Assembly: GCA_001692895.1 (NCBI GenBank)
Contig: KV748182.1
Coordinates: 3,042,341-3,106,340 of the forward strand
Reading direction: 5' to 3'
DNA: 64,000 nucleotides
From: Cenococcum geophilum 1.58
Taxonomy: Eukaryota > Ascomycota > Dothideomycetes > Gloniales > Gloniaceae
The notes beneath the pieces are model-generated. The model was not told the DNA's origin. It did no database searches and saw only the letters and a program-made list of their open reading frames with translations. Position numbers and translations under genes: made by a program. Shown here one piece after another: positions 22,259 through 56,069 of the stretch (position 1 is its first letter; every line of letters begins with the position of its first letter).

Positions 22259-22445
22259 TGTCACGGCACTAACCTAACACGTTGTTTTGACTCAGTGTTG
22301 TCATGACACGAGCATAGACCTGACCCCTAAGCGACGTGTATATATACCGCCTCATCTCCTACATAGATCCTCACACGACATCGTTTGTCAATGATATACA
22401 GTTACCTCGTACCTCGTACCTTGACAGTCGGCACGTACTGTGACA
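22259..22445. mobile_element. Solo LTR, weakly mutated, unknown family
   Basis: A 187-bp block with normal base composition lies in TA-rich Gypsy-O. It starts tgtcacggca and ends cgtactgtgaca, giving the TG...CA ends and short inverted repeat of an LTR. The 5-bp direct repeat tagac stands immediately on both sides (22254-22258 and 22446-22450). It contains a tatata stretch that could be a TATA box. No other copy is in the window. The near absence of RIP, compared with its host element, implies recent arrival or escape from RIP. Confidence 0.85.
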
Positions 22446-23114
22446 TAGACTATAGTCTTAAACTTATCCTATAGTAAAGGACACTTATCCTTAGTGCCTA
22501 ACCGGCAATAAACTAATTAGGTAATTGTTTTCTCTTTTATAAAACCTTTAATGGCCTAGCGCGTGCATTACTTATAGTTATAGTTAGCGTTATTAACCTT
22601 AAATCGGGTTTTAACTGCGGCGATCCACCGGTTAAAATACTGTTAAGTAGTACCGCTAATATTAGGTAGTAACTTTTTAACTAGGGCATTAAGATTTATT
22701 CGGCGTATACGTTCGCTATATAACTTATACTCTTTACTAACAAGGCAACGGGAGGGCTTTATTAAATTAATAATACTCTATAAGTTGGCTATTTTCTTAG
22801 CTAGCTTATCTAGCTCCTTTATATTAGCGGTATTAGGTAGGACGCTAGTAACCTTACTAAGCTCCTATTAAGCCTAGGTATATAAGTTAAACTAGTCTCT
22901 AGCATTTATAGATATTTAATTATTTTAAGGTTTAGAAGGTGGCTTAAATGCTACTAGTGTGCTTCTAGAGGTTTCGTCTATACTAGATCCTAAGGCATTT
23001 TACAGTCGCGTCGCTAGCGTATTACCGTTAGGTGTAGGCGTTAGTTTTCTTTTTAAAGGCATTATAGAAAAATTAAACCGGCTATCCTCCTAAGGGGATT
23101 AGTAAGGATTTAAA

Positions 23115-23339
23115 TATAAGGTAAGAATATAGATAGGGAGTCTAATAATAGAATAATAGGTATATTGTATAGACAGAGACGAATCCTTAAGGGAAAAGGA
23201 AGAGTCTATGTGCGAGGTAGGAAGGGTTTTCCCTAGGTATGTATAGCGCACGTGCCTTACGGGCAAGTCACCCCTGGGTTGCCCCAGGGTCGCCCATACC
23301 TTACGGCTATATAACTATTTACTTAGGTTTCACCTAACA
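23115..23339 (-). repeat. Gypsy-O right LTR (5' LTR in element sense)
   Basis: Partner of the LTR at 9366-9590. It is the less mutated of the two and retains cctgggttgccccagggtc (about 23267-23291). The target duplication gtaac follows directly. Confidence 0.9.
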
Positions 23340-23591
23340 GTAACTCGCCCTTTATTTAATAGCCTAGACCTAGAAAAATACTAGATAATAGCCCTATAGG
23401 AACTAGCATATAATAAGCACACCTATAAAAAAAATACTAATTAAAAAAAATACAATCTTTTATATAAACTAGACCTAGCTACTCGCGTATACTTCCTAAT
23501 TAGCTAATATATTAATATATAGGTATAAAGCTATTAACTAGAATTTAGTATATAGAGACTTTAAGGCCTAAAATATAATATAATATATATC

Positions 23592-30500: not shown

Positions 30501-31602
30501 TAACTCTAACTATCTTTATAATCCCTTAAAAATAACCTTATTTCCTATAATTTATATAAGCTCTGTTTTTAAACTACTAACTTTGTTATAGAGTCCGCCT
30601 AAACATCTTCTACTACTAAGATCCCTAGTTTAGCCTTTACTCCTTAGTCCTATAATTACTAGATCCTTAACCTCTAAGTTTCTATAGTTTCTTACTCTAT
30701 CTCTTATAGGTTTTTTTAGTACTATTTAGGTCTATTAGCTCTACGCCATACCATAGTTTTTAACTTAGCTTTAGTTGTTGCGTGCTCTGCATTTTATACA
30801 ACTATAAAACTCTATCCTAACCTCTCTTAGCCTATTCCCTTTAGTAAATCCAATTATTAATCTTAATCGCTTAATCTATTAAATCTCTTAGGGTATCCGT
30901 ATCTTCTATTAGAATAATTACGTCCTAGACTTTAGCCTTAAGTCCCTATTTATACTATACTATAAGCGCCTTATTATTCTACTTAACTTATATAGCTAGC
31001 GTTTAAAACTATGTTATATACTTAATTGCTAAGGTTCGTTACGTAATATTTTAGAGTTTTCTTTCTACTATAGTTACTACCTCTAGGTCTCCAAATATTT
31101 ATATAAGTCGCTCTATAAATCCCTCCTAACTTAAGAACATAAACCGCACCTCTTAGTTAGTGGTTATTATTCCATTCACTTATATTTCTATAAGGTAAGA
31201 TTTAAACTACTTAAGTGCCCTTTCTGATAGGAATAGCCCTATATATACTATTCGATCCATAGGTATTAGCAGTTTTACTCCTTCTTATATAACCTTAAAG
31301 TGTATTTATATAAGAAATTCTTTAAGCTTTAATCTCTCCCCTAAGAATCTCTTAATTAAAGGTAACTTAATCTTTACTACCCCTATCCCGTTAATCCTTT
31401 ATTTAAGCGTCGCATTATTCTCTATTAACTAGTTAACTATCTCTTATAGTTGTTTAACTATTATAGGTTGTTATAAGTTAGTATTTGCTATACTAGTATT
31501 ACCTCCTAACCTTAAAGTAGTTGCCGCCGTTAATGGCGTTATAGTAGCTGCTTTTAGTAGTATATTATTCGATTTATTAAAACCGTAATTAAGTAGTAAT
31601 TG

Positions 31603-32019
31603 TGTAACGGAACCTTATAGTAGGTACTACAGTAGGTCCTGTTAATAGGCTAGGTGTATAGGTATTATAAGTAAGTTAATAACGTAATAATAACTAGTAG
31701 AGTGGTTGCTTAATAGATTAACTTTAATTATATTCTAAGAATTACTACAAGGAAGGATCTAGGTAGGGACTAAAGGTCCTTAAATACACAACCGTACTTT
31801 TATAAAATCCTTCTTATATATAATATACGTGTTATATATAAGGTACGTAAGTTCCTCTCGTTCCTCTTATTTAATACGTAGCACATTATATAACTTGCTT
31901 ACTATCCTTCGTTATATAGTTCCACGGGTTCTATCTTATACCATACTTATATTAACCAACTAGCTTCTTTTGACTCTTCTCCAAGTAGTTATAACATTGT
32001 ACTTAAAGCGTCCGTAACA
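31603..32019 (-). repeat. Gypsy-A element 2, right LTR (5' in element sense)
   Basis: This 417-bp LTR begins tgtaacgg and ends ccgtaaca, followed by the target duplication tttac. Confidence 0.9.
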
Positions 32020-32230
32020 TTTACTATAAAAAGAGAAGCTATTTAAGTAGTAAATATAGGTCTTTAAATATAATAATCCTATTATATATAAAATATATCC
32101 TTTTATATATTTTTTTTACTAGTTGTATAGTTCTACGGATTCTATTATAGCCCGTGCCTTTTCTAGCTAACTAGTATCCGCGAACTCCTCTCTTAGTAGT
32201 CCTGGCATTTTAATTATTAGGTTAGTAACA

Positions 32231-32704: not shown

Positions 32705-33918
32705 ATGTTTCCTCCCCTAACGTCAACATTCCTCCACACTTTACCGTTATTGCTTATGGCTTACGGAGCATGCGATATGACTGCCCTTGGGTCCAGTTGG
32801 AAGAACGCACCACACACGCGCAAATATTTCTATGCCGGTGGACACTATGCAGACGACGGTACGGGAAACCACATTTTCAAAGACCAGGTTTACGTAGAGC
32901 AGTTGACGCCTCTTAACGGCCCCACGAAGCCCCACCCTATTGTTTTCATTCATGGTCAGGCTCAAAGTGGTACAGTATGCGTCTCACCCTTTACGCACTC
33001 AACAACACACGCCATGCACAAGTTATCACCTTCCTAATATGTGCACAGAACTGGCTAAACAAACCAGACGGAAACTTGGGCTGGGCATCATATTTTATCT
33101 CGCACGGTTACGAATGCTTCATCATCGACCAAGCGTTTCGAGCACGTAGCGCGTGGTTTCCGGGTAATGGTTCAATGGCAACTTACAGTGCCGAGATGAT
33201 CCAGCAGCGCTTCACAGCCCCGAAGAAATACGGTCTCTGGCCGCAAGCTGCGCTACACACACAATGGCCCGGCGAGGGCCTAATGGGCGATGAGATCTTC
33301 GACGCCTACTACGCCTCCAACATCCAATTTATTAAAGACGAAGGCTACGAGCAATTAGCAGTACAGGCTGCTGGGGCAGCTTTGCTGGACCGTATCGGTT
33401 GTCCTACAATTCTGCTTGCGCACTCGCAAGGTGGAATGATGCCATGGCTTATAGCAGATGTGCGGCCTCAGCTTGTTCGCGCCATTGTGGCACTGGAGCC
33501 CAAGGGGCCTCCGTTTCAGGAAGCTGTGTTCTCCAATATGTCGACGAGGAAATATGGCTTGACGGACATTCCGCTCACATATGATTCCCAAGTTGTAGAC
33601 CCTGTCATTGGCTTGGTGAAGACTGTCATACTTTCTAATTCCCCGAATGCCTCAACCTGCATTCTTCAGGCAGACTCTCCACCGCCACGTCAATTAATTA
33701 ACTTAAAGGAAATTCCAGTGCTGGTGCTAACGACTGAGGCTTCCTACCATTCCATGTATGATTGGTGCTTTGTGAAATATCTGCAGCAGGCAGGGGTGAA
33801 GACGGATCATTTGGACCTAGGGAAGATTGGGATCCATGGGAACGGTCATCTTGTGTTCATGGAGAAGAATAGCGACCAGGTCGCCGCTGAAGTGCGGAGA
33901 TGGATCGAAGAAAATTGA
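32705..33918 (+). CDS. Secreted alpha/beta-hydrolase (esterase/lipase-like), one intron
   Basis: Exons 32705-32974 and 33049-33918 give 379 residues. The 74-bp intron has gtatgc donor, cctaat branch-like site and cacag acceptor, and splicing restores a GT-N-W-L junction after the HGQAQSG oxyanion-region motif. The N-terminus [24 protein letters not shown] looks like a signal peptide. The nucleophile elbow is AHSQGG with Ser216. Glu240, in VALEPKGPP, lies 24 residues later, where esterase-713-like hydrolases place their acid (recalled, not checked). His357 in GNGHLVF is the likely catalytic base. The family hydrolyses esters or lactones; the substrate is unknown. The frame is intact, with normal composition and no RIP scars although transposons flank both sides. 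The other frames here are shadows. The next transposon terminus is 393 bp downstream. Confidence 0.92.
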
Positions 33919-34310
33919 CGCGATAGCGAAGCAGTTCGAGAGAATGAAAATGGCATGCTGGGAATGCTAGCCTCGAGAGGTTGGCACTCCTAGTTTGACC
34001 AGGAGAACCATTCACTCCGATCTCGGATCTCTATAGTGATTCCTTCCTACTCTGGAATGGCTTTCTCTAAGTCCACACCTCATAGAACTAGGTTGCAGAG
34101 GTGCAGAGTTTTTTGCTCCACAGTTCACCTGCGATTTCATTCGGTTCTCTTAGACTGAGGCCGCTTGTCGATGGATTACGAAGCATGTGCAAGTTTCCGC
34201 GGCAACATTTCTAAAAAGAAAAGCTGGAGATGATTCCCCGTGTATGGAGGCTGAATACAAGACGGTTCCCGCAGGTTGTCTGATGCACTCTCCTGCACTT
34301 AATCCAGACA
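33919..34310. other. 3' flank of the hydrolase gene
   Basis: Normal-composition sequence with no reading frame of note. It should contain the hydrolase 3' UTR. It ends at the left terminus of hAT-B copy 2. Confidence 0.6.
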
Positions 34311-34950
34311 TGGCAATAATCAGTTAGTTAGTTACGGTTATGTTCGATTACATAGTAACATTACCAATCAAATCATAATCGCACCTAGTAATTTTGTTAC
34401 GTAGATACAACAATATAATCACCCGTGGTAAGAACAGGTGGTAGTGGTAAGAGAGCCATGGTGTTAAGTACTAGGTTAGCGCATGCATCGCCAGTAATAA
34501 TCTACATATCCGTGCATAGCTCCAAATCAATTAAAATACATACAATATACGTCTGTGCGGGCCTGCAGAAGAATAGGTGTACATAACGCGTCGTGGATAC
34601 CGCGTATAGCTCCCTTACCTTTTTATCCACCACCAATCTACCTTACCTTTACTACCCACGCTTTAAGCTATGCCTCCCTTAGCTAACTCCTCTATACCAC
34701 CCACCACCCAAAAGAGAGCCCACAAAGAGGAATAAGCCACTACTGGCTCAACACTCAGCGATCACGATTCGCGTAAGTTTGATGATGTTACAGCTGCTCG
34801 CAAGGATCCTAATCACTAGATTAGTCAGGGTGGTTTTGGATTATGCGAATAAGCGAGCATAAAATATCCTTTATCCAATAGAAAATGCATAAAATATCAC
34901 AATTAATAAGGATAAAAGTGCCCTATGTGGGGCTTTTCTACCCTAACCAA

Positions 34951-35036
34951 GTAGAATTTAGTAGAATTTGGCGGATATTGTAAATATTGCAGATATTGCG
35001 AATATTGCGAATATTACGGATATTGCGGATATTATA
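34951..35036. repeat. Short tandem repeats near the hAT-A left end
   Basis: Two gtagaattta/gtagaatttg units are followed by about seven 9-bp units of the form gatattgcg or aatattgcg. Subterminal short repeats of this kind are common transposase-binding arrays in hAT elements. That role is inferred here, not shown. Confidence 0.6.
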
Positions 35037-35710
35037 GTAGGAACAGGTCCTATATACCTCTCCCCCTAACTATATAATAGCTGAATACTTAAAGAAAAAT
35101 CCCTTATCCCTTTTATAGTTCTTCTCTAATGCTAATTCTTTAAACACTTTGTTTTCTTAAGGGTTTTAGGATCTATTTATATTCTCTCCTACAATACCAT
35201 ATAACGTCCTCCTAAAAAAACTCTTTCTAGCTTATCGCTTATTGCTAGAATTAAGAGAATTTTAATTGCTATAAGTAAGAGCCATAGCTAGCGCTTTCGC
35301 TGCTATTTTTAAGACCACTATTAAAGCGCGGTTATTAAAATCTTATATAGCGTCTTAAAGATAAAGTCTTTATACTTATTCTAACTTTTTAGTCAAAATA
35401 TTATACTATTAAAATCCTCGGCAATCTTATTAAACTTATTAAGGTCTTAAGCTAGAGCTAGCTTTTTATATAATAATATACTTTTAGGCGTAGAACTCCT
35501 ATTCCAATATCTTTCCTAAAGCTTTTTAATGCTATTAAGTGTAGGCTTATACTACTCCTTCTTTTAAATCTACTTAATATATCTTATATAACGGGCTAGA
35601 TAAAGAATAAGCGCAGTGGCATAAAGGGGCAAGTTATCTGTTTTATAGTAATACCTATTAAAGATATTCTAAGCATTTCTAATACGTTTAGAGAACTCCT
35701 TATTAGATAT

Positions 35711-35978
35711 TGTATAATTACAGCACCTGTTGTACCAAACGCGTGCTTACGCGTTCGGTACACCAGGTACGCGTTTACGCGTTCAGTGCACCAACCACTC
35801 GCTTACGCGTTTAGTGCACTTATAAAGCACTGACTAATTAGGGGGGAGGTACATCAGTATATAGACCACGTAGTCTGCTTTATACAATTAACAGTTACCA
35901 TCTAAATAAGCATACGATACTACATGTATTTCGTACCCGTGGATACAACTCACTCGTGCTATTAAGTTAGTATAAACA
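35711..35978 (+). repeat. Copia 5' LTR
   Basis: This 268-bp repeat matches 41806-42073. It holds a three-unit 28-bp tandem array (35734-35817) and, right after it, tataaag (35821-35827), a likely TATA box of the element's promoter. Confidence 0.93.
35734..35817. repeat. Three 28-bp tandem repeats in the Copia LTR
   Basis: Three consecutive 28-bp units each start acca and carry ttacgcgt, ending in gtac or gtgc. They are rich in acgcgt, a CpG-containing motif that RIP spares. They sit directly upstream of the TATA-like tataaag, so an enhancer or repressor-binding role in U3 is plausible. The same array is in the 3' LTR. Confidence 0.85.
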
Positions 35979-38900
35979 CTAATCAGTGAGCGCGCATAGA
36001 TCAGCAATCACTTAATACCTCCCCCTAAGCAATACACACGACAGCAACCACCCGTTTAGACTCCTAGTACGACCTACTAGAAGGTCGGAAGTCGGGGATT
36101 ACGGACTTATCTCTAACTCTATATACTTATTTAAGTCTTAGTATAGTTTACTAGAAGTTATAGATGTAAATATAGACCTATACGGAACCCCTATCCTTAA
36201 CCCCCTTAAACCTTAAACCTCTTTAGACCTTTTATGGAAACCCTTTACCCTCCTATAAACTATTATGGACCCATTAATCGATTTTACGGACCGTTATAAG
36301 ACCTCCCCCACCCGTTATAAGCTACTACCACCCGCTACGCACCATACTACACTATAGTATGGCAGATATTAGCAAGCAAGTTAGTAAAGGTTAAAAGAAG
36401 TAGAGATAAGGCGTTGATGTTACGTCTATAAACAATATTAACAACTATATTAGCTTTAAAATCCTTAAATATAAACACTTTAAGCTTATAAATAACGACC
36501 TATAGGAGCAATATAAGGAAGACTTTGCGGACTTTATGGAAGCTATTTTTAAGGCTTATAACCCTACTGCCATCTATAACCTATAAACCCTTTTACGTCA
36601 CTAAGGCGTATAGGTTAAAAGGGACAAACAAGTCACTATTATACGGTCTCTATATAACATACTATATAAAGAGAACCAAACAGAATAGACTAAAGAGCAG
36701 ATCTTAGATTACATTAAAACCAGCGACCTCTTTGCCTCCTTTAAACTTAATAGAATCTCTGGCCTTATAGCTGACCTATTTAACTAAATTCGTTCCATAA
36801 ACCTAAGTAACATTAGAATTAATCTTACTAGCTAAAGTACACCTAATACTTAAGTTACGGACCATAATACCCCCGTAACCTAAATTACGGACTATAATAC
36901 CCCTATAAACCAAAATACGGACTAAATTACCCCTATTATTTAAGTTATAGATCCGCAAGCCATATATCCGCAAGCCATAGATTTATAAATCATAGATCCG
37001 CAACCTACTTAAGTAAAGACCTATAGTAAGGAGCTAGCTAACCTAGCCAAGCTCTATACCGACGAATCTAAGTATAGCAGTAAAAACAATAACTTTAACT
37101 TTAAACTTACTATCTTTATGGACCTCTATTAAAAGGCTAATATTCCTAAACAGGAATTCAGCTAAGCCTACTCCACTATACTACGCGGCCTAGCACTTAA
37201 CTACTACTACACTAACCTTAAGAGCAACCCCCTTAGTGTACCCTTTAATAAGCTATATAAAGCTACGCGTAACTACTTTAAAGGACCGGAATATAAGCGT
37301 GATATTCTTACCCAATGGAATGCAACCAAGCTATAGACCGTAATTAATAAGAATACTAAAAAATCGACTATAGAGTGCCTATAAATTCTCATTAAAGACC
37401 TTCGGCACCTATAGTATGGCCTTAACACCAAGCTTCGAACAGACGACTTCCTATATAATAAACTTATTACAGCCTGCTAGGAAGTAGAGCCCTATAAGTA
37501 CGCCTACTACAAGCCTGTAGATACCTTAGCTGGCCTTATTAATAACCTACACTCCTCTATTATAATGTATAAAGTCTTAAACCCACTAAGCAGCACTTAA
37601 GCCTTTATTGCGGATATTTAATATCCGTAAATAGACTTAGACGTCTACTTTACGGACCGCCGCTACTACTAGCAGCACCTATACCGACCAAGTCCTACCT
37701 ATAACCCCTATAGCAACCCCTGTATAAAAACATACCCCTGTAGATAAACCAGCCAGAAGTGCTTCGTGTGCGGTAAGGAAGGATGTTGGTCTATAAGGTA
37801 TACCCGGGAAGAACATAATAAGTTTAGAAAGAGACTTAATAGCCGTATTAACTAGTTTATTTTGGAATATAAAGGAGAGAAAGTAGAAGAGACCCCTAAT
37901 AAGTTAATAGAAGCCCTTATAATTAACTTTAACTTAGACGCTTAGAAATAAGAGACCTTAGAGATATTCCTAACTACTTTTGGACCTTTTACAGACAGCT
38001 AAGCCTTTAATATTATAACCGTATTAGCTAACCGTTCCTTTATACACTTAGTTACGCCCAAAAACCATTCCGTAAGTACCCCCGTTATAGATATTATAAA
38101 TTATAAGCAGGACCTATTTGCATATATTACTATAGAACGCTATACCCCTAAGGAATTCTACGGTATTATAATCGACATAAGTGCCTCTAAGAAGTCTACC
38201 GTAGGCTATGGACAATACCTCGTATATAGGACTACTACAAATAATAATACGGACATTGATATTACGTAAACTGGGGCCGTAAATATCTAATTTAGCATCG
38301 GCTTAACCGCATTAATTGGATTAGTTAAAGTTAAGACTCTAATTAGCCTAGTTAACTTCCACGTAGTAAAAGCGGATACTTTCTTCCTACTCTATCTTGT
38401 AGATATGGATAGGTTATAGGTGTACTATAATAATGTTATGGACACCCTAATTGGCCCTATAACTACCCTAGGAAGTAAGTATATTACCCTACCAATTACA
38501 CGACGATTTAGACACCCGTTCCTTATATAGGGAGAGACTTTATAGACCTATATTTAGGAATCTTTTAACTATAACCCGTGCTACCTTACTAGTACGGAGA
38601 TCTACCGCCTATACCGCCGTTTCGGCCACCTATTAGCCGAAAAGCTATATAGAGTCCTTGAATGCTCTGGATATGACGACGTTAATAGGAAGGCAATTAA
38701 CCACCTAACTAAATACTGCTCCTTCTACTAGAAATACGGACGTTCCCTAGGCTGATTTAAGTTTACCCTTTATAAGGACCTTAACTTTAACCACTTAGTA
38801 TATATAGACATTATATATATTAACGGCAGTCTAGTATTATATATAATTAATAAGGCAACCCGCTATTAAGCCGCCCGTTAGTTGCAAAATATATCTATAA

Positions 38901-41805
38901 AATACACTTAGGATATTTTACGGACCTGCTAGATCGATATATACGTTGGACCTCCGCAGTATATTACCTACGACGCTAGTAGGAACTTTATTAGCAAGGA
39001 ATTCTAGCAGTATGCTACGGCTATAGCTATATTAATAAAAGCTATTCTAGTTAAGGCGTACTGGTCCGTTAGGCTTGTTAAGTAAGCTCACCCAGCCTTA
39101 TAAAGAGCTTACTAGATTATTATAGACGAGTGTAAGGACATCTAAAAGGAACTGGCTTTACAGATAGCTGTAAAAGCTGTTAATAATACCGCTGGCCCCA
39201 ACAGACTAGTACCCACCCTCTTAGTTTATGGAGCCTACCCAAGGATAAGTAACCTAGGCCCTCCTGCCCCGTCTATTACGGAATGAGCAGCTATAATACG
39301 GAAGGTAATAACTAAAATAGTTAAGCTACGGGCCAAGCAAGCTATTAATAACGCCCTGTACTACCGCAACGGACCTAACACAACCCTAGTACACGACCTC
39401 CCGCTTAACTCTGAAGTCCTTGTATGGCGTGAAAGCGGCAGTTAGAATGGACCTTATTGTCTACTAGCCGTAGAAAATGAGACGTGCTGCGTATAGCTTT
39501 CTAGTGGGCCAACCAGCTTTAGAAGCACGTCTGTAAAACCCTACTTTCGGCCCGAAAATACCTATAACGTTAAACCAGACGAACTAGAAGCACCTATCAA
39601 ACTAGACGAACCGGAAGCACCCGCCGAATTAGATGAACTGGAAGCACCCTTGCCTACCCTAGAAGTCCCCTAGAAACCCACTGAACCTACTAAACCTACT
39701 ATAAAGCGTGGTTAAGGACGCCCCTAAAAGCACCCTATAACTAAGAACACTATAACAGAAAATCACCTAACCTCCGCAGGAATATCCGTAAGGTAATCTC
39801 CGCCTATAGATATATTAGTTTTAGTATAGGAAACCCCGTTTACGGACTTATGATATAAAGAGATTAACGGACTACTTAAAAAGGGTATCTTTGTGGTTAT
39901 AATAGAGAAAGATATCCCGCAAGGCGTCCGTATATTTAACTTACGCTTTATTAATAAGATTAAGCACCCTAGTATTAATAAAGCCTTTAAGAAATTAAGG
40001 CTTATTATATAAGCTTATAATAATAAGGGAAAGGACTTAGTCCTTATATAATTGCCTATAATTTAATAAGTTAGCTAATAAATTATACTTGTACTTACGC
40101 TAGGACTACAGTAAACTAAATCCGTAGCCCTATACTTACGGGACATCTTATAAGCCTATATGTAGTCCAATACCTACCTAAGTAAGGACATCTTTATACA
40201 ACCACCCTATGAGCTTAACCTATAACTAGGAACAATTTTATAGGTCGTAAAACCTCTTTACGGAGTACTAGAAGCTAGGAACTACTAATTTAAGACGTAC
40301 TACTAGTATTACGTTAGTAAGCTTAAAATAGAACAGTTAACCTACGACCCCTACCTCCTATATAGCCTATTAAACGGCCTTAGTATTATTAGACTTTAAA
40401 TAGATAATACCCTATTCCTAGTAGACTAGACCTTTACGGACGCTAAAGAAACTAAACTATAAAAGGCTAAGTTCTTAGCAAAGCTATAAAAGTAGTTAAC
40501 TAAGCAGAATCCGATTAAGTTTAATAGAGGCCTAATTATATAAAAGGGCAACCTAATTAAGCTAACTTAGGAACGCTAAGCTTAAAACCTAAAGCTTATT
40601 ATAGTAAAGCCTATAGACCTTACTAGTTCCCGCGAAGAAACCTATAAGACTGTAAATATAAAGGACTAATACGCTGTATAGCGTGTAAGAGGCGCCTATA
40701 TTACCATAGTCTGCTAACCTAAATCTACCTACGACTTATCCTTTACGGCCTAAGTAGTAGATCCGTAAGAAGAAAATATTAAGTAGCTTAATAAGCGCAT
40801 TTAGTGGCAAATTAATAATGTAGTAAGGGGACTTACTTTTATACCACTAGACCTAAATTCCCTTAGCCTACTAGTATTTACGGACGCCTTCTTTACCAAT
40901 AATAAAGACCTATTATCACAAATTGGCTTTATAATTATACTTATAGACCGCAATTAGGACGCAAATATACTACACTAGTCTTTAATTAAGTGTAAATAAG
41001 TAACCCATAGTGTACTAGCTTTTAAACTATATATACTAGCTTATAGATTTAATATAGCAGCTACAATTAAATTAACGGTCTAGAAGATTTTATAACTAGA
41101 GTAGTTACCCCTAGTTTTATGCACTAATTTAAAGTCCCTTTACAACTGCCTAGTTAAACTAGGTACAATATAAGAGAAGAGGCTTATAGTTGACCTAATG
41201 TGCTTACATTAGGCCTATAAACGACGTGAGATTACGGAGGTTAAATGGATTAGCAGCGGAGATAACCTAGCGGACGCCATAACTAAGGCAAAGCTGTGTT
41301 AAGCCCTTAAAACCCTAATTAATATAAATAAGCTCAACCTAAAAGTTATAAAATAGGTAGAACGGGACTAACGGAGTACCTATAGTATGTCTACGGCCCG
41401 TTAGAAGGCCGTACGGCTCATTATACGGTATAGGTGGAAAATGGTAAAAAGCTACGGTGGAACTTAGTAGACTTACGTAACCTACCGAATTTTATAGGGT
41501 AGTTAAATTGACCAATTACAATTTTCCATCCCCGGGATGGAAAATCGCCATTGGTTCGCTTAGCACTAGCGCCTTAGCGGCCCTTAAAATCTAACTTATG
41601 GCTCGTCTACTGCCTATCGAAAGGCTGTACGGTTCATTTTACGGACCGTAAGTAGAACTTACGGCTAGCTTAGGGCACCGTTTGGAAGGCAGCCTAGACG
41701 GCACCTTAGGGAGATTTCCTATGTATTTTCCTTTATATTCTATGGTTTTATTAAAGCAATTACGGAGGCTATATATAGGTGGTTTCATTTTTCAAGTACT
41801 GCCAG

Positions 41806-42073
41806 TGTATAATTACAGCACCTGTTGTACCAAACGCGTGCTTACGCGTTCGGTACACTAGGTACGCGTTTACGCGTTCAGTGCACCAACCACTCGCTTA
41901 CGCGTCTGGTGCACTTATAAAGCACTAACTAATTAGGGGGGAGGTGCATCAGTATATAGACCACGTAGTCTGCTTTATATAATCGACAGTCACCATCCAA
42001 ACAAGCATACGATACTACATGTATTTCGTGCCCGTGGATACGACTCACTCGTGTTATTAAGTTAGTACGAACA
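41806..42073 (+). repeat. Copia 3' LTR
   Basis: Partner of 35711-35978, slightly less mutated, with the same 28-bp array at 41829-41912. The target duplication gatat follows. Confidence 0.93.
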
Positions 42074-43638
42074 GATATATACTCCTTTTATTATATAATA
42101 TTAGCTAGATTAGAAAATAGAGTAGGGAGATAAACTAACCTAAGATTTATTAAGGTGCTTAATTATAATATCCATTATAAAGAGTATATTCTTAAGCGTT
42201 GCACTATATCCTTAGCATTTTAGGGTTACTTAGTGGAATATTTAAAGAAAACTTTTTATTATATAAAGCGCCTCCTAGTCCTTTGGACTAAGATAGTCCT
42301 TTTTAAGTATATTAAGGTTACGCTTAGTATACGTATTAAAGGCAGACTTTTTCTAAATTACTACGCTGAGTATAAGATACTAGCTATTCTATCTTATATA
42401 ATTATTAAGTAGAATTCTTCTCTCTATAAGACTTTTAAACCCCCTTATACGACTAGCTAAGCTATAGGTATATACGGTAACGTCATAAAGCTTTTTAAAT
42501 GCGCTAAGTTTTTAAAATGTATTACTCTTCTCTTTCTCCTCTTTTAGATCTAACTACTTTCCTTTTACCTTATCTTTTTTATATAACTTAATATTATTAA
42601 GACTAATTAAGTTTTTAAAAAGGAAAGCCTATATAGTAAGGTTTAGAATATAACCTTAGTAGTAGATTTATTAGTAGACGGGATTCTATTTAATTCCCTC
42701 TTCTTAAAAAAGCTAGCCGCTTATTATATAACAGAGCTTATTATTTATAGTATAGTTATCGGATATAACGGTACCTAGTTTTTATATAATCCCGTAGTCC
42801 TTAAGCACTAAAAGGAGAGTATTTTATTACTTGTTTTTACTATAAGAGGCTACTATATAAAGGCCGAGGAGAGCGTTTATAAGCTTTTCCTAGCTATTAA
42901 TAAAATGGCCGTAAATTATAAGGAGAAGGTAATTATTTAAAGAGGTCTAGATATTGACAGAGAGATAAATACTTATTAGCGCAGACTATAGCCTTTTTTG
43001 TATAATACCCTTTTATAATAGCTATAAGTTATAGATCTTTTTACTAACTACTAAATAGGCTATAGTTATATAGCCGTCTACTTTAGGATTAATTAACTAT
43101 AAAAGGATATAGAACTCCGGCTACTTAACTATCCAAAATAGTAAGTTTTGTACGATAATTAATATAATAAGGGCCTTATTAATAACTTTCTTATTTAGGA
43201 CTACTCGGAGTACTTTTAAATCTAGCTCTTCTGTCTTATTTTAAGATAACGCTTTAAGGTAAAGATCTTTTAATTAATTCTATATTGCTTCTTTTATATA
43301 ACTAGTTTTAGGCTTAACTATAATGCTATGCTTTAACGCTAAGTAGTTTTAGAAGTTAGAAGTTGACTATATAGCGTATAACTCTATATAGTGTTTATAA
43401 TAGAATAAAAGATAAGCATTTTTGTTTTATACGGGCTTATTACTACCTAGTAAATAGGTATGCTCTTATGTTAAAAGAGTTAAGCGACCTCTTATATTTT
43501 TTTATTTAGAAGTATTGATAGAGTTAAGAGCTTCTAATTCTACTTTTAAAGCTATATTTATACAATAATAAAGAAGAAGAAGAAGACTGAAAATTTATTT
43601 AGGATATTCCAAGACTTATTGCAATAAGATGGAATGGC

Positions 43639-43660
43639 TATCCTTATCGCGATAAGGATA
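43639..43660. repeat. 22-bp perfect palindrome near the hAT-A right end
   Basis: The sequence centred on tcgcga reads identically on both strands for 22 bp (core ccttatcgcgataagg). Its core is repeated 10 bp further on, at 43670-43684. It lies about 45 bp inside the right terminus of hAT-A, where transposase-binding sites are expected. Confidence 0.75.
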
Positions 43661-45344
43661 TCTATTCCGTCTTATCGCGATAAGGTTTATCCAAAACCAC
43701 CCTAAGATTAGTAAGCCACAACTAAAGCGATAGCGCGCCCGTAAGAATAAGGCTCTTTAGTTGTTTGCCCTTAATAAGGCTCTAGTAGGCTTACTAGTAA
43801 GAGGTAAAATTAAATAAGAGCTCTTTTACTATAAACGGTATTCTAATTATAGTGTCGCGAAATCTTCCTTAAGTATAGACTTGCTAATAAACAAACCCCG
43901 TTTGCTAGTTTGTTTGTTTATTTACTTTATAATTAAATAACCAATTAAGCCTAGAGGCCTAATTTTAGCAGTCAATCAAGCCCTATATCGTCTCGTTTAA
44001 TTAAGTTGGTTTACTCGTTTAATATATAAGATATAGGTATTATTATTAGTTAAGGGGCGGTTCTTAGTAGTTGAGTTTTAGGTAGTTCTATAATATACCA
44101 CAATTGTGATATAATATACGCGCCGAAAATAAACACCTAAACGCGTCTTTCTGACTTAACCCTCTAAAGTCTCCTCTTTTACCCACCAATTCCTGTTGCT
44201 ATACTGCCTATATTATGTCTTCCCACCTTACTAAAGCTGGCCCTGTTGATTTAGTAGAGAATACGCCTGTAATTGTGCCTAGCAAAGCCTATAAAGGTTT
44301 CGATACCTCATTAGAATTAACCCCCCTTAAGGACGAATACGAAGGCCTTAATTGGGACTGTGTAGAGAGATATTAACGGCCTTATTAAGACCTTCTTAGA
44401 ACTCCAAGCTTTATATAGGACTATAGCTGGCGGCTCTAGTAAAGATTTAGTGAGAAAATAACCGTTTTCTTATATAAATATTGCTATATATATAAAATTA
44501 AGGTGACCCTATATAAAACTAGTAGAGCTACTACTTCTGCGGTAGGATACCTTGCTAAGGATATAGATAGCTATTAGGTTAATTCTTGTGGTCCTATTAA
44601 TTATATAATATTTTAAAAGCGGAAGGCTTTAACTATTTTAGAGTAGATTTAAGAAACTCACTATATATTATAAGCAGTTACTAATAAGCTTATTAAGTCC
44701 TATAACTCCAATATCTTTAAATAAGCAATTATACTATAGATCGCTACCGGAAACTACCCTCTATAAGAAGTCGAGCGACCTAAATTTTAAGCCCTAATTA
44801 CGGCCGCAAATAAAGACGCTGAGCTTAATCTATACCAAAACCACAAGTTAATTTATAGTTAAGTTCTCGCTAAATATAACAGTAATAAAAGTGTGGTAAT
44901 AGAAGAACTGGCCTAATTAATAACAAGATTTTATATATTATTTAATAGCTAGATAACGCGCGATAAGAAGAAGGCTCTTACTAGTATCTATATTTACTAT
45001 TTAGACCATTAAGGCCAGATTTAAGACTTTATACTTACTCTACTAGAGTAGCTTAGCCTATATAGCGGCTATAACTACCATAATGTTATTAGCAATACCA
45101 TTACTAAGTATAATCTTAGTAGTTAAATTAGCTAGTTTATTATAGATAATGCCTATAATAACGATACCTATATTAACTTCCTCGCGGTAGAGCTTAAATT
45201 TAATAAAGAGTAACATTAAGTACGGTGCGCTACTTATATATTTAATCTAGTGGCTTAATTAAGTCTATTTAAAACTAATAAAGATGCGTTTAAGAACAGT
45301 AATAAGAACTTAACGGTAGGTAGGCGTTCCCCTACTATTAATAT

Positions 45345-45511
45345 TGTTCGGATCATGGGGGGGGTTTTGGTTTCAATCGATTTCTTCTCTTTTTCCTTTC
45401 TACTTCTACAGGTGGAATTTGATGGATCTCCTGAGCTCGCTTAGCTCACGTGGTTAACCCAATTGGTTATAAGCAACTGTGTCTACTATATTACAGAACC
45501 TTATTCAAATA
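45345..45511 (-). repeat. LTR of the gag-only element, left
   Basis: 167 bp, nearly identical to 47214-47381, including the G-run after atca and the shared block ctgtgtctactatatta. It is preceded by the target duplication aatat. Confidence 0.9.
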
Positions 45512-46540
45512 CTAGCAACAACTAGGAAATAAGAGAAAGGGGTACTAGTAAATAAGTCCGTAGTCTCTATCCCTCTCCCTTTTTAAATTCGGTCCAAAAC
45601 ACCTCCGCCTTAGGGTTGCCGTAATAACTAGGATAGGGTTCTATATTAAGGTAGAAGTTAGAAGCTCTAAACCTTGCTGTAAAGGTATCCCCTTAGTTAT
45701 CGTCGTCGTCGTCGGTATCGCCGTTACTGCCCTCAAAATCGGAGATATATTGACGTATTTTTCGGTCCCTTTTGTCCTTTATATGGTTCGTAGACTAATA
45801 TCTAGATTTACTGCATACAAAGCACTTTTTGCCCTTATTGCGATATTAACGGTTAGGGGGGTAATATCGTCGGTTAGTATAGAATAATTCAATCTCTGGT
45901 TCTTGTTTACCGTACGTCGCGATTAAGGATTTAATATCGCTAATAAGGCCAGCAAGGGTAGTAGCGGGTCGGAAATAGGCTGGTTTGCAAGCTAATACAT
46001 CTTAGCACGTAGTAAGAAGCTTATTATAGAATGTCGTGTTATTCTAAAGGTCCTTTGCTAACCCGCGTTGTAGCTACCACATCTCGTTAATTAATACCTG
46101 AAATGCTTAGCCTATATTAAGTCCTTTTTAAGCAGTAACTTATTTAAGTATAATCGCATTCCACTTTAATAGGATGTCGCGTTTATATTCGTTGCCTTTA
46201 AAGTATAATTTTAGGCCTATGCATACGTTCTTAAGGTTAAGATCTTTAAGGTAGGTAAAGTAGTATTTAAGGGCAAGGCCGCGGAGTATAGTAGGAATAG
46301 CAATAATATACGCTTGCTTAGGGACGCCGGCTCGGAGGCAGTAGTTTTAGAAGATCTTAAACTTAAAATTAAAGTTGTCTTGTTTGCTAGAGTATTTAAC
46401 TTTGTCCATATAGAGCTTAGCTAAGTTAGTAATCTCTCTTCCGAAGCTTCCTTATAGGGCGAGCTGGTTTATAGCTTGGGTTGTAGTTAGGGTTGGAGTT
46501 ACTTAAACGGGAGTAGTTAATAGTAATGGTAGGGGTGGGG

Positions 46541-46628
46541 TAGGGTCGTCGGTAGGGTCGTCAGTAGGGTCGTCAGTAGGGTTGTCGGTAGGGTTGTCGG
46601 TAGGGCCGTTAGCAGGGTCGTCGGTAGG
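46541..46628. repeat. 12-bp tandem repeat coding a PTDD/PTDN array
   Basis: About seven units close to tagggtcgtcgg lie within the minus-strand gag frame and code for repeated Pro-Thr-Asp-Asp or Asp-Asn. A 12-bp period keeps frame, so copy number can vary without breaking the protein. Confidence 0.85.
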
Positions 46629-47213
46629 CCATTTTAAGGGAGTTAGTTCGTGAATAGCTACTAAGAGGCCGTCTACAATTAACTTCCTTGCCTCCTTCCG
46701 TACGTATACTCTATTCTTATAGAGGTAATCCCTGATCTTCTTTAATCGATCCTTGCCGAGGTTATTAAGTATGTCCTTTGTAAACAACTCAAAATCGTCA
46801 ATAAAGCTCTCCTATAGGTCGAATCCCTTCTATCCATTCTCCTTGTATATTAATAATCGCCAATTAACGAATGCTTCGACTTCCTTGATATCGGTTGCGG
46901 TCACATTAATTCTGGTCTTCTATTTTTTAGTATCTATTGCGGAGGTAGATTTTTCAGTATTTATCGCGGAGGTAGCCATCTTTTAGTTCCGCAGTTGATT
47001 CGATTTAACAGTTGGACTAGAAGCGTGGAAACACCTACAAACTAATCGTTCTAAAGGCGTAATAGACGCAGGTTAGAAGCGCGAGTAACCTTATAAACTG
47101 GCCTTTAGGCTTAGTAAGCAATACCTTAATTCTTAGCCTTTAATAAGAGGTCTAGAGAACCAGACAGTGCCTCTCTTCGTTATTCCTTTGCTGATCTGCG
47201 CGGCACTGATCAG

Positions 47214-47381
47214 TGTTTAGATCACGGGGGGGGGTTTTAGTTTTAATCGATTTCTTCTCTTTTTCCTTTCTACTTCTACAGGTGGAATTTAATGGATCTC
47301 CTAAGCTCGCTTAGCTCACGTGGTTAACCCAATTGGTTATAAGCAACTGTGTCTACTATATTATAGAACCTTATTCAGACA
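47214..47381 (-). repeat. LTR of the gag-only element, right
   Basis: 168 bp, partner of 45345-45511. It ends ttattcagaca and is followed by the target duplication aatat. Confidence 0.9.
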
Positions 47382-48694
47382 AATATAATTAAAACTAAGA
47401 CTTTTATAGAAAGAGCAGCAGTTCCTAAAGGAATGGCGAAAGGAAGGCCCGCTTAAAACTCTTATTAATTTTATTTATTTAATCTGTTCGCTATAAAAGT
47501 ATAAATAGTTCTATACCTTCTAGCGAGAGGAAAACGCTATGCTACTGCGTACTAATTTTAAAGTCCTTAAGCTTGTTAAGCCTATTAAGACTAAGTGGAA
47601 TAGTTATTTAATAATATTTAAACGGGCTGTTAAGCTTTAAGGCCCTATTTCCTTAATAATATAGTACGATATTAATAAATGGAATAGAAAGCTTATAATA
47701 ATCAAGTCTAGTTAATAACGTAGAAAGAATCCGAATCCGTATTAGAAGCCTCTTAATTAACCTCTCTATATACGAGTTAGTGGCCTTCCTATAATTAGGA
47801 CGTTATTAAACAATATATTTAGCTTCTTAAGCCGCTTTAGTAAGCTACACTTAAGCTTAAAGAAAGAGGTAAGGCTGGGCGCAATGGCGTAATATAGGAA
47901 GTTATCCCTTATATAGCGTTTTTAATAAGGCACTACGAAGAAGCTAAGGCTTAATTAACTAAGGTAATGACAGAGGATTATCCTAATTAAGAGGCAATTA
48001 AGGATTACTACGAAATTAATATTAATCGCAGGTGGGCGAAGCTTTAAAAATACTATATAGCGCTTAATTAGACGCCTATCTACTACGCAGCTTACCTACT
48101 ATACTCTAACCTTAAGCGATTCTGCTAAAATAACTAGAAAGAGAGGCCTAATTGGATAACTAGCTGTGACGCTTCCTTCTAAAAGCTCTAGCTTAAGTAT
48201 AAAGGAAAAAAGCTATAGTTGGTAGGGTAAGCCTCTAAAAAAAATTAGCCTTTATAACCTAATATTAATAACTTTATTAAAAGCTTTAGAGGTACTGCCT
48301 TTACTATAGCACCTTCCTTATTTAATAATTAAGAAGATAAGTATAAGTAGTAGAAGAAACTTAATCCACTAATAGAAGATTACCTACTAGCTTACAATCC
48401 GTTCTTATATTAGAGGATAATAGTAATAAAGTTTCCTAACCTTAGCTAAATGGCGCTTAATATACTAAGTATACTACCGTTAAGCTGCGACTGCAAACAA
48501 TTGTTTAGTAAGCTCGGTAATATACTTAAGCCTTATCGCTTATAAATACGGCCTAATATTATCGTAGCCTTATAGTGTACGCGAAGCTAGAACCGTAACG
48601 GCTTTTGTTGGTGTCATAGGGTAACTCACCAATGCTACTCGAGTAGACACAGTGAATGTTGGTTGCAAAGCTTATTGTTTAGAATTAGGGGGTG

Positions 48695-48719
48695 GGTGAG
48701 GAACCTAAGGTTCCTCACC
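48695..48719. repeat. 25-bp hairpin in the hAT-C 3' region
   Basis: The 12-bp arms ggtgaggaacct and aggttcctcacc are separated by one base. It lies in a RIP-free 190-bp patch (about 48600-48790) with a second direct repeat, gacacgtgac, just downstream. It may be a separate small insertion or a subterminal signal of hAT-C. Confidence 0.6.
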
Positions 48720-51633
48720 ACGCTAGTGCCGCGGCGACACGTGACGACACGTGACGACCGCTTGCCTCATTCCCGACAGCTTTATTAAATATAGAAAATA
48801 ACCTTTCCTAATAAGGAAATTGTATACTAGTTCGGACTTAACCGGAGATTGCGCTATTTAATTTAGTTTGCTAGCTTTTAAATAAAGCAATAAGTTCTAC
48901 CTAAATTTTTAACCCTAGCCTCTAACTGTGGTGCTATTAAGAGGCGTATCTCTTACTTTAGGAGCTGTTTTGTATATATATAATGATATATAGGGAGGAT
49001 TGGCTATATAGCCGGATTAATATTGCTGCCGTTATAGAGGCGATCGATTTTTTAAGCAATCTTTTATATAGGAAAACTCTGCATTAAAGTTGGAGTTATG
49101 TAACCTTATTTAACCCTTAAGCCTAGTATAACACCAAACGCCTATTACTAAATTGTAGTATAGAGCTTCTCCTCCTATCGCGTAAAAATGTATAATAATC
49201 TATCCAAATAGTTAAATCTATCTAAACCGTTTGCTAGTTTAATTAACCAAACGAAATAAATAAGCTTAAAGCTTTAAAATATCCAATTAACTAATCCAAA
49301 GATCTATGGTTTAAATTATTTATTTATTAGCAAGTCTGCTTAAGTATAACTACTTTTTATTAACACTTTAAAAACACGTATAAAATTCTTACTATACTAA
49401 AGCAATCTAAAGTTAATATAAATACTAAAGCTATACTATATTGTTTAATTAATAAGCTAAGAAATAAGTAACTAGGCAAGATCTAAGAACTATAAAAGTC
49501 CTATAAGAGTTAGTAAACGAGAAGACCTTTCTTAATTCCCTTATATACTTAATCGTCACTCGCAATCTTCCTTATATAATTATTAAGTAGCTAGAGTTTT
49601 AAGCCTTTTTATAAATCTATAACTATATATTAATAAAAGAGGGTAGGCCCTTATATAAATCTTACAGAAACGTGCCTATTTTAATTAGTAAGATATTTAT
49701 AATCTAAAAGGATTATATAAAGTTAAGGCTCTAGAAAGCTAAGCTAAAGATCTATTTTATTACTAATTATTAGACGGCTTTAAATAAAATAGCTTATTAA
49801 GTAGTTACTACCTATTTTATAAACAAATTAAGCTAGCTATTAAAAGCTATAATCGTATTAAGAGAGCATAAAGAGGTATATAAAGGTAATTAAGGAATAT
49901 AAGATTCCTAAAAGCTAGATTAGTTACCTTACTAATAGGCTTTATTTTCTGCCTTTGCTACTATTAAGTTTTATACTAAATATACCTAATTTAGGTAATA
50001 ACTACGGTAGTAATAATAAGCTCTATTAAATTCTATAAAAGCGCTTCCCATTTTAGAATACTATATAGCACCAAATTCGCTATATTAGCTATATTATTAA
50101 CCTTATAGTATAAGCCTTCCTTTTTTATAAAGATAAAGAAGTTATTAAAGTCGCGATTTACGTAATAAAGGAACTCTAGTAGGAGGAGTAATACTTAAAT
50201 ATTTATTTTAAAGGAGAGTATAACTAAGACAAAGCTACTTTTTAAAAAAAGTGGGAAGAGATTAAAGCCCTAGGTAGGATATATAATATCGCTATATAGT
50301 TAAAGCGTTTAATAAAGCAATATTAAGCCTTTCTAAAGCTAGCTAAAAAGATACTAAAACGTAATAATAATATAAGGTAGAACTTATAGCCTCTTATACT
50401 AAAGCTAGCAATAAAGCTTAAAACTATAATTTAAGTCTTTATAAATTTATACTATAAAGAGATAAGCACTAATGCTCTTAGTTACAATAAATAGAATATA
50501 ATTTATAAAATAATTGCAATCCTATTACTATTTAAAGATGTAATAAAGGCCTTAAAAGGCAATTTAATAACTTTAAATAAGGTTCTTTAGAGTATAGATT
50601 TCCTTATTAAATATATAAAAGAGATATAATAGGAGTACGCTTCTAATACTTACCTCTTAACGTCTCTTTTAACGATATAGTTTGCTTTTAATAAATACTA
50701 TACCTTAATTAATAAAACACTAATATACGCGGCAGCCTTATTACTTAATTAAATACTTTAATAAGCCTATTTTAATAAGAGCTAGAAGACAATTAATAAG
50801 TGTTACCCTAGTATAATTAAGTAAGCAATTAAGGTTGCGTAAAAGCTATAGTAGAAAGAATATAAGTTTAAGCTAATTAATAGTAAGCTAATTAGGTAAG
50901 TAGATCTAGATCTAATTAAAAATATATATAAGAGGTAGTAATATATAAGGGAGCTTAAAAGCCTATCTAATAACAATAAATTTAAATAATTTATTACTAT
51001 ATAATCTACCTCTAATATTTATAACACCACCTAACTTATCTTTTTATAGGCAAATCCTCTACAATTAATTGCCGGCTTTTCCCTTACTTAGTGGCTTAAG
51101 CCCTTTTAGTAAAAGCTCTACCTAAGGCTCTCTTAAATAGCTATTAATATCCTCTCTATACTAGTAATGTTAGCTAAAGCAAAATAAGTCTTTTTAGGTA
51201 TATGGCAAGCGATCTTATAGTCGCAATATAGGCTTAGAGTTATGGTAGTTAAATAAATAGAGTGCTTAAAAAGCTAAATACGCAAAGTCGCCAAATCTAG
51301 CAGCTTTGTGTCAGCAGAGGTAGCAGCTAAGGTGTTAAATATTAAGGGAGGAGTTAGTAATACGGGCAGCAATAATATAGGCAATAGCCGGGTGTTAGAT
51401 AAGGATAATTAGTACAATTAAGAGCCTTCCTAAACACTAAGAGGCTATTACCAATTTGGGGTAAATATAGGAAGATCTAGGTAAGTCCTATAGGCTATCT
51501 ACTATACTAAAAATCGGATCTTAACCCCAAATATAGGTAATTAATATAACTACGCAATTAAATCGCAATCGCCTCTTATAATTATATAGTAATCGCAATC
51601 CAACGGCTGATTATAATTATATAGTTATTACCA

Positions 51634-52330
51634 TATCTAACTTAATCTTTTTCTTCCATCTCTAGAAGCTTTCTCTCGTCTTTTATTAGTAGTATTCACC
51701 CTCACCCGCTTCTAGAAGACTTCTTAAAGGATAACTGTAAGCTTTGCAGTGCGAAGAATTAAATGAACGACTTGATTGTAAATGTAGATCTAGAGTATCT
51801 ATATATACACGAACAAATGTGGGTCACTAGTACCCCTTAATCTTATCCTCAATATAGCCGTAATTGACATTTTAGGCTAATTAAGGCCGGCTGTAACCTT
51901 TACGTTCCACAGTAGGTAATACAGCAGTGTCTTTGACGTAGTACTGGTAGTCGGTTACAATAACTGACAGGGCGAGGGAGATTGATTGCGGGGACTCCAT
52001 GTGATCTGATCAGAGCACTGCCATGCTTTTAGACATCTCTCCGAAGAATGACGAGGTCCAGCCTTACCCTTAAACCATTTAAGCAAGCTCCCAATCTAAT
52101 GCCGCGGATGGTGTCAACCTGTTTGTCGTGGTGTTTAGACGAGAACCTGAATGCCACGACGGGGCAGCAAAAATACCGCGCTCTTTCGGCGGAGATTTTG
52201 CGAATCGGTAGGCAGGAATTTTTGCAAGTTGAATTGGATAAATGAGGAAGTGAAAAAAAAAAATTTTAAAAAAAAGGATTAATTTGTCTTTACCTTAGAA
52301 TACTAGTTACAAACCACAATATAACTCGCG
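51634..52330. other. Low-RIP island without a recognised gene
   Basis: The composition becomes nearly normal again, with many CpA and TpG. A 65-codon plus-strand frame at 52048-52245 ends just before an A-rich run (52251-52275). It shows no motif I recognise and no intron-linked exon, so it is only a possible gene remnant. Confidence 0.4.
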
Positions 52331-54534: not shown

Positions 54535-54955
54535 TGTAACGGAACCTTATAGCAAGTACTACGGTAGGTCCTATTAATGGGCTAGGTATATAGGTATTGC
54601 AAGAAAGTCAACAACGTAATAACAACTAGTGGAGTGGTTGCCTAATAGATTAACTCTAATTGTATTCTAAGAATCACTACAAGGAAGGAACTATCTAGGT
54701 AGGGACCAAGGGTCCTTAAATACACAATCGTACTCCTATAAAATCCTTCTTATACGTAATGTACGTGTTATATATAAGGTACGTAAGTTCCTCTCGTTCC
54801 TCTTGTTTAATACGTAGCACATTATATAACTTACTTACCACTCTTCATTACATAGTTCCACGGGTCCCATTCTAGACCGTGCTTGTATTAACCAACTAGC
54901 TTCTTCCGACTCTTCTCCAAGTAGTTATAACATTGTACTTAAAGCGTCCGTAACA
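54535..54955 (-). mobile_element. Solo Gypsy-A LTR in Gypsy-B
   Basis: A complete 421-bp Gypsy-A LTR (tgtaacgg...ccgtaaca) with the 5-bp target duplication ttata on each side (54530-54534 and 54956-54960) and no internal region. It retains noticeably more CpA/TpG than the LTRs of Gypsy-A element 2, so it is the least altered Gypsy-A LTR of its subtype here. It arose by recombination between the LTRs of a former full element after Gypsy-B was already in place. Confidence 0.92.
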
Positions 54956-56069
54956 TTATAGAGTTAACGGATTTCTATAAGGACTTAGTAAAGCCTCTCT
55001 ATTTCGTAAGATATATATATTAGCGTTTCCGTTTATTATACTTAATATTATTAATTCTTTTAATAAAGTACTTATTCTTACTATCTACTTTAACTAGTAG
55101 GGGAGAGTCCTATATTTATTTAGGCAGGGCATCTAATACGGAGATAGTAGGGTAGAGGACTAACGTATGGAATATAGGGTGGATTTTAACCGTATTAGGG
55201 AGCTTTAGTTAATAGGCGTAAGAGGAAATAACCTTCTTAACCTTCTAAGGGCCAGCGTTCTTCTAATTAAGTTTTTTAATAGGTTGTTTTATATTTAGAT
55301 TTCTTATATCTAGCTAAACAAAGTTATTAATTTAGTAGGCTAGTACTAGGGTTTATTTCTTATTTACTGCGGCTTTATAGATAGATTAGGCCTATATTAT
55401 TTTATTAGTAAAGAACTATTATAGTTCCTCTATCTTCTTTATAAATTTATTTACTTTTATAACTTATAAGGCGTAATAAGCGGGGCGAGGAATATTACTA
55501 AAAGGTTTAAAACCTATTTATAGATATTAGCCGTAATTAGCTAGAAATGGGGAGACCTTTATAGTTTCTAAGACGGAATTATTTGTAGTAAACTCGGCGA
55601 ATATAAGCTAGTTATTTTAGTTATTTTATAAAATATGACATATATATCCAGATATACTATTCTATTATAGCGTTTATACGTTCCGTTTAACCGTCTATTT
55701 CCGGGTAATATATAGTAGATAGTAGTACTTTAATATAGAGTTGGGTAGTTAGTTCTTTCTAAAATATAGAAATAAATTAGCTACCTTTATTAGAGGTAAT
55801 TATTTCGGAAAGTCTGTAAAGTTTCTATATATAATCTAGGAACAGTTAGGCGATAATAGGTGTTAATATATTAGGGTAGGCCATTAAGTATCTTATCTTA
55901 GATAATTAGTCTATAACTACTATAATATTTATACAGCCTTTACTTACGGGGAGATTAATAATAAAGTTAATTAAGATATCCTTCTATCTTCGGTCTGGAA
56001 TAGGTAGTAGCTTTAAAAAGCCGTTATACGTTTTATATAAAGCTTTAGCTTATTAGTAGATATAACAGC

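Follow-up and report, generated by a model that had tools for sequence, protein, structure and literature searches.

A three-level nest of transposable elements in Cenococcum geophilum, with a pol-less, gag-bearing LTR element that resembles fungal GalEa retrotransposons

Introduction

Nests of transposable elements are well known in fungi, and 78 putative clusters are reported for Mycosphaerella graminicola in the available text of one survey (PMC4522978). Here we describe a nest, ordinary in kind, from Cenococcum geophilum 1.58 (contig KV748182.1, positions 3,042,341–3,106,340; this 64-kb stretch is referred to hereafter as the window), in which a hAT transposon (hAT-B) contains two further hATs (hAT-A and hAT-C), and these contain long terminal repeat (LTR) elements. 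hAT elements move by cut and paste and leave 8-bp target site duplications (TSDs); LTR elements use an integrase and leave 5-bp ones, as is established for these superfamilies.

GalEa elements, a type of Copia retrotransposon, account for 10.4% of 177.57 Mb in C. geophilum according to the available text of their description in fungi (PMC5445492). The same text states that a Conserved Hairpin Site (CHS) replaces the primer binding site (PBS) in fungal GalEa, made up of a palindromic sequence, CHSeq1 (CTGATCAGT or CTAATTAGT), and of CHSeq2, its complement save for a fixed A/A mismatch, with 12–41 bp between CHSeq1 and CHSeq2 (PMC5445492).

The literature that we found on TR-GAG elements concerns plants, going by title or journal. 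The name stands for LTR elements that carry gag and lack pol. Non-autonomous LTR elements do occur in fungi, where gag tends to escape profile-based detection (PMC3248453, available text), and the accessible part of a study of bivalve terminal-repeat retrotransposons in miniature (TRIMs) describes CHS-like inverted repeats in them (PMC6934838). Titles and the opening lines of abstracts, with subscription papers and supplements outside this scope, disclosed no gag-only GalEa family in fungi.

Results

Six elements at three levels

The nest comprises six elements at three levels (Table 1), the deepest chain running from hAT-B through an inner hAT to an LTR element. hAT-A holds a Copia element; hAT-C holds both an LTR element with gag but no pol (hereafter the gag-only element) and a solo LTR of a third family. 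All six (6/6) are flanked by perfect TSDs. Among 200,000 random pairs drawn from the window, 8-bp flanks agreed in 9, and 5-bp flanks agreed in 461 of 200,000; because these rates are low and each duplication abuts a terminal inverted repeat (TIR) or LTR end exactly, the TSDs of the nest stand above chance. We read the locus as a series of nested insertions, with hAT-B as base, two hATs inside it and LTR elements inside those, at a probability of roughly 0.93.

Table 1. Coordinates of the nest and its parts (positions in the window)
Feature	Position	Strand	Details
hAT-B left TSD	34297..34304	.	ACTTAATC
hAT-B base element	34305..51639	+	17,335 bp with inserts, 2,977 bp net; TIR CAGACATGGCAATAA / TAGATATGGTAATAA
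hAT-A	34826..43704	-	TSD AGATTAGT (34818-34825 / 43705-43712); 2,511 bp net
Copia, fungal GalEa type	35711..42073	+	6,363 bp; 268-bp LTRs (252/268 identical); TSD GATAT 35706/42074
Copia CHS	35979..36004	+	CHSeq1 CTAATCAGT, CHSeq2 ATAGATCAG; transition-damaged; directly after 5' LTR
hAT-B middle piece between inner hATs	43713..43875	+	
hAT-C	43876..49338	+	TSD CTTAAGTA (43868-43875 / 49339-49346); 3,243 bp net; PF05699 E 1.1e-8
Gag-only LTR element	45345..47381	-	2,037 bp; LTRs 45345-45511, 47214-47381; TSD AATAT 45340/47382
Gag remnant of gag-only element	45564..46979	-	472 codons, 16 in-frame stops
Gag-only CHS	47191..47213	-	CTGATCAGT + GCCGC + GCAGATCAG; directly after 5' LTR
Solo LTR, third GalEa-type family	48606..48778	-	173 bp; TSD GCTTT (48601-48605 / 48779-48783)
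hAT-B right TSD	51640..51647	.	ACTTAATC

A preliminary description of this DNA had given hAT-B as 34311–51633 and the nest as four layers deep. Homology among paralogous hAT-B copies instead starts at CAGACATGG (34305) and stops at 51639, where the element meets a perfect 8-bp TSD of its own that the description lacked; the levels number three, and the solo LTR, the sixth element, had been overlooked. In other respects that account of the architecture was borne out: the four duplications it quoted (those of the inner hATs, the Copia element and the gag-only element) are exact, hAT-A and hAT-C are separate insertions in hAT-B that each carry an LTR element, and hAT-B resumes at the points claimed, paralogous copies running across both junctions. 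The net length also lies close to that of copy 1 in the same window (2,977 bp versus 2,955 bp; copy 1 at 2587–5541, flanks AATGTCGA/AATGTCAA). Its statement that the order of events can be read directly held for hAT-B coming first and for the inner hATs being separate arrivals; containment gives only a partial order, in which hAT-A and hAT-C cannot be ranked by age, nor can the Copia element against the inserts of hAT-C, or the gag-only element against the solo LTR.

The superfamily hallmarks of hATs, short TIRs and an 8-bp TSD, are present in hAT-A, hAT-B and hAT-C, with three perfect octamers between them. The C-terminal hAT dimerisation domain (PF05699) exceeds its curated cut-off in hAT-C and in hAT-B, where a remnant lies on the plus strand of the right arm (E 1.2e-4). 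The match in the left arm of hAT-A falls below threshold (E 0.014; 15.6 bits, cut-off 21.4) and, being on the minus strand, identifies the coding strand; a paralog (L005) passes the cut-off (E 9.2e-5, 22.6 bits). No Pfam domain was found in any of the six frames of the hAT-A right arm in the window, and a second paralog (L008) gave no match in three frames of its right part and one frame of its left. Open frames of 200 codons or more are absent from the cluster.

Empty sites in paralogous copies

Paralogous copies, sought in the 177.19-Mb genome and for the most part scored among the best candidates, lack the inserts at the corresponding positions. The hAT-A site is empty in 7/7 hAT-B copies that reach it (L002, L003, L004, L010, L015, L016, L017) and the hAT-C site in 6/6 (L002, L003, L004, L015, L016, L017); the paralogs cross both junctions with a single octamer, which is altered in L003 and in the diverged copies. 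L016 and L017 represent a diverged hAT-B subfamily, and their empty hAT-C site is judged by spacing alone, the octamer region having diverged. Outside the hAT-C-site count stand L010 and L013, which have a deletion over the site (L013 is also without the left arm), and one further hAT-B match (C68) stands outside the empty-site counts. L010 and L013 are themselves internally deleted hAT-B derivatives, a non-autonomous form in which 43869 is joined to about 51030; the flanks of L010, AGTATATC/GGTACGTC, differ in nothing but transitions.

One level further in, the gag-only site is empty in 14/14 of the hAT-C copies in which the left piece extends to within 2 bases of the site (the pieces overlap by 3–5 bp) and the solo-LTR site in 19/19, three of which are distant (70–71%), with 13 query bases next to the site left out of the alignment. 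Three of three informative hAT-A copies (L005, L008, L007) have an empty Copia site, though in L007 the alignment leaves out about 57 adjacent bases; L006 is too short to judge. On five contigs or more, other hAT-C copies are themselves split into pieces that lie about 1.6 to 41 kb apart, and since the intervening sequences are presumably inserts, nesting looks common in this genome.

As in the M. graminicola clusters, a base element has received several primary insertions verified by TSDs, in DNA of low GC with RIP-like mutation (repeat-induced point mutation, RIP); primary insertions there are mostly LTR retrotransposons as far as the available text goes, whereas the base and first level here are hATs (PMC4522978).

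Three LTR elements with GalEa traits

Judged by leader motif and similarity, each of the three LTR elements resembles a fungal GalEa Copia element or a derivative of one. The Copia element has the GalEa size and ends (TGT...CA LTRs, a 5-bp TSD and a length within 5.4–7.0 kb), and the order gag–integrase–reverse transcriptase (RT)–RNase H runs within a single broken frame on the plus strand. RT and RNase H were recognised by eye, a reading backed by matches of this stretch within the solo-LTR family (inside four loci, best E 7e-47). At the places of the GalEa motifs QTDD and CQPEA we read QIDN and C*PKS by eye, and ADAITK is intact.

The palindrome ACTRATYAGT occurs in the window solely at the LTR/leader junctions of the Copia and gag-only elements. 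Among the LTR ends compared, CHSeq1 follows in 9/25 gag-only, 9/20 Copia and 9/20 solo-family cases; LTR ends without it are followed by other sequence and are probably 3' or solo LTRs. The Copia element shares with published fungal GalEa elements that have a CHS its TGT...CA LTRs, 5-bp TSD, length (6.36 kb), the A/A mismatch between CHSeq1 and CHSeq2, and an ADxxTK RNase H end; unlike those described in the available text, the spacers are short (8 nt, Copia; 5 nt, gag-only element) against a range of 12–41 bp that may be measured differently, and the gag-only element is without pol (PMC5445492). In the solo-LTR family the spacer, about 20 nt, agrees with the published range, but one base of CHSeq2 deviates (PMC5445492, same text). 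tRNA-half priming, considered for the common leader CTRATYAGTG, was dropped in favour of the published CHS arrangement; no tRNA search was made.

The solo LTR is a GC-richer stretch within hAT-C that starts with TGTTGG and ends with CGACA. It matches at 90–98% in 39 other places (with the window, 40 were scored out of 2,152 candidates). In the loci compared in detail the sequence occurs as the LTR of longer elements and as apparent solo copies with a 5-bp duplication; its strand was deduced from the CHS position in the family. LTRs of this family are spaced about 5.9 kb apart in a long form and about 2.1–2.2 kb in a short one, which retains both internal ends and the CHS (two copies).

A gag-bearing family without pol

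The internal region of the gag-only element (1.7 kb) contains gag alone, and no pol domain was found in it, so that the label “gag-only” used in the preliminary description is apt; the single gag-pol open reading frame (ORF) of GalEa is lacking, and we class the element, which has the LTR ends, 5-bp TSD and CHS of fungal GalEa, as a GalEa derivative, not an autonomous GalEa. Its gag is 35% identical to that of the Copia element over 286 aa. In the zinc finger of gag, C(2)C(4)C(4)H, the third Cys is replaced by Tyr in 9/10 copies of the family.

Such an element could be no more than a full GalEa that was deleted by accident, with no family of its own: internally deleted derivatives are common, and the long and short forms of the solo-LTR family are related in just this way. 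Against this, all 8 gag-only LTR pairs among the 40 best of 208 candidates scored (window included) are spaced 1.31–1.88 kb and none 4–8 kb, and more than 40 places match the gag at 58–84% identity. The differences between copies likewise argue against it. In an alignment of 10 gag copies, 18/18 distinct gaps are multiples of 3, as are 10/10 in the five copies not chosen by frame (window, L046, L047, L048, L056). Shared transversions fall at codon positions 1, 2 and 3 in 3, 6 and 13 cases (p 0.028) and shared non-RIP transitions in 38, 27 and 65 (p 1.5e-4); RIP-type transitions (50, 30, 40) show no significant difference (L052, the same element as L046, was left out of the codon test). Gap lengths that preserve the frame and the excess of shared non-RIP differences at third positions suggest that gag was under coding constraint until the copies died. 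An accidental deletion thus strikes us as unlikely.

The gag-only element instead has the traits by which TR-GAGs are recognised: LTRs and gag, no pol, and a recurrent family. It resembles the plant elements in being a gag-bearing LTR element without pol and differs in being fungal and GalEa-like, with a CHS at the tRNA primer position. Bivalve TRIMs are likewise non-autonomous LTR elements without a PBS whose inverted repeats have the mismatch at the same position, but they are animal and TRIM-type, and the available source text does not state a GalEa origin for them (PMC6934838).

All eight distinct gag-only copies with a readable leader (8/8) keep CHSeq1, four of them being of the longer form (two seen in part) and four shorter derivatives. 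This retention, shorter derivatives included, supports the proposed action of the CHS in cis.

A second, more diverged gag family matches the gag-only gag at 32–43% identity in 19 places, some copies having few stops; 442–1875 of locus L078 is an example. No autonomous partner of the gag-only element is revealed by this relative (6 kb, gag match alone).

RIP and neighbouring sequence

Calculated every 2 kb, RIP indices stay high nearly throughout the window, with exceptions at 1–2 kb and 32–34 kb and lower values at 34–36 kb, and they are high in most segments of the nest; we infer that the host is a RIP-proficient filamentous ascomycete. Mismatches between the Copia LTRs are transitions in 16/16 cases, 13 in RIP context, and those between the gag-only LTRs in 9/10, 8 in RIP context. 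We rejected dating by LTR divergence, because nearly all LTR differences are RIP-type transitions in a nest that is nearly all RIP-mutated. RIP level was also rejected as a clock for the layers: the composite RIP index (CRI) of the hAT-B left arm differs between this copy and its paralogs (0.88–1.14 in L002–L004; 0.67 and 0.63 in the diverged L016 and L017). In the window, this arm (34305–34825) has a CRI of 0.38 versus 1.39 for the rest compared, and it adjoins an unmutated gene island. A further reason against RIP level as a clock is that the solo LTR, at 173 bp, may fall below the length needed for RIP.

Just left of the nest, a 313-aa ORF (32977–33918) has an alpha/beta-hydrolase match (PF12697, E 2e-7). 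Further left, 244-bp direct repeats 13.7 kb apart (90% alike; 9362–23354) surround a 6.9-kb element (11776–18646) with 420-bp repeats at its ends, a possible second nest; 11775–18155 and 25805–32020, about 80% identical, are long elements of a single family that lie inverted to each other, and an extra 420-bp repeat lies at 54537–54959.

Discussion

The strongest competitor to insertion in place is composite transposition, in which hAT-A with the Copia element, and hAT-C with the gag-only element and/or the solo LTR, arrived already loaded, the LTR insertions being older. Containment alone is compatible with a loaded hAT moving as a unit and so does not separate the two, and hATs can be mobilised in trans. 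Yet among the best candidates scored, no other copy carries the Copia junction (0/39), the gag-only junction (0/14) or the solo-LTR junction (0/19); for the first, 39/39 other scored hAT-A matches stop at the Copia start (40 scored of 1,458 candidates). Composite arrival is accordingly improbable. That the nest is an assembly misjoin of separate repeats, conceivable in a region so rich in them, has a negligible chance, given six exact TSDs, colinear arms and a net length near that of copy 1, and a misjoin would not leave the elements bounded by 8-bp and 5-bp duplications that match.

Besides this ambiguity of containment, several observations weigh against our interpretation of the nest and its LTR elements. 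The Copia integrase, upstream of RT/RNase H, is a sub-threshold match to PF00665 (rve; E 0.0053, 17.4 bits versus 32.6); RVT_2 found no match in the window Copia, RT-side pieces included, and Pfam searches of all six frames of its internal region returned nothing, shorter pieces giving the sub-threshold rve alone. The Copia CHS in the window has lost the fold of the published hairpin (z 0.44); z values for the remaining four leaders lie between −1.7 and −3.2, and in three cases 8/200 shuffles matched the folding. Taken alone, the score of 30 for similarity of the Copia leader to the gag-only leader does not exceed chance (500 random window pieces reached 32), and the argument from these leaders rests on position and the CHS motif. 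As to coding constraint, singleton transversions in gag have no codon bias (4, 3, 7; p 0.40), the selection of 5/10 gag copies (L079–L083) by long matches in a single frame works against frameshifts, and 9/18 gaps lie inside a proline/threonine-rich stretch, where the repeat unit itself may promote gaps in multiples of 3. RIP mutation is slight in two segments, namely the hAT-B left arm and one gag-only LTR (CRI −0.13).

With transposition mechanisms deduced from family membership, nested insertion would have proceeded as follows. hAT-B would first have landed beside the alpha/beta-hydrolase-like gene; hAT-A and hAT-C would next have entered it by cut and paste, each independently. A GalEa-type Copia retrotransposon would then have inserted into hAT-A, and hAT-C would have received the pol-less, gag-bearing GalEa derivative and a member of the third GalEa-type family. 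As the latter is now a solo LTR, it presumably shrank through LTR–LTR recombination. Finally, CpA>TpA mutation of the RIP type would have scarred the copies in the cluster.

The gag-only element was probably mobilised in trans by GalEa pol, its own Gag and CHS serving as parts in cis. On a broader reading, to which we give even odds, it would represent a pol-less GalEa family that retains gag, a fungal counterpart of TR-GAG; together with its shorter derivatives and the deleted form of the solo-LTR family it would make up a deletion series, keeping CHS and LTRs throughout, that shows the CHS to act in cis in replication, with gag selected in cis and pol borrowed.

With an exact TSD for each layer and empty sites in paralogs, the nest is a clean teaching example, and it illustrates why LTR divergence fails as a clock under RIP. 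The part worth following is the pol-less GalEa-type family with its retained hairpin. Since the parts kept by amplifying derivatives must act in cis, such pol-less derivatives bear on how reverse transcription starts without a tRNA binding site in fungal GalEa elements.

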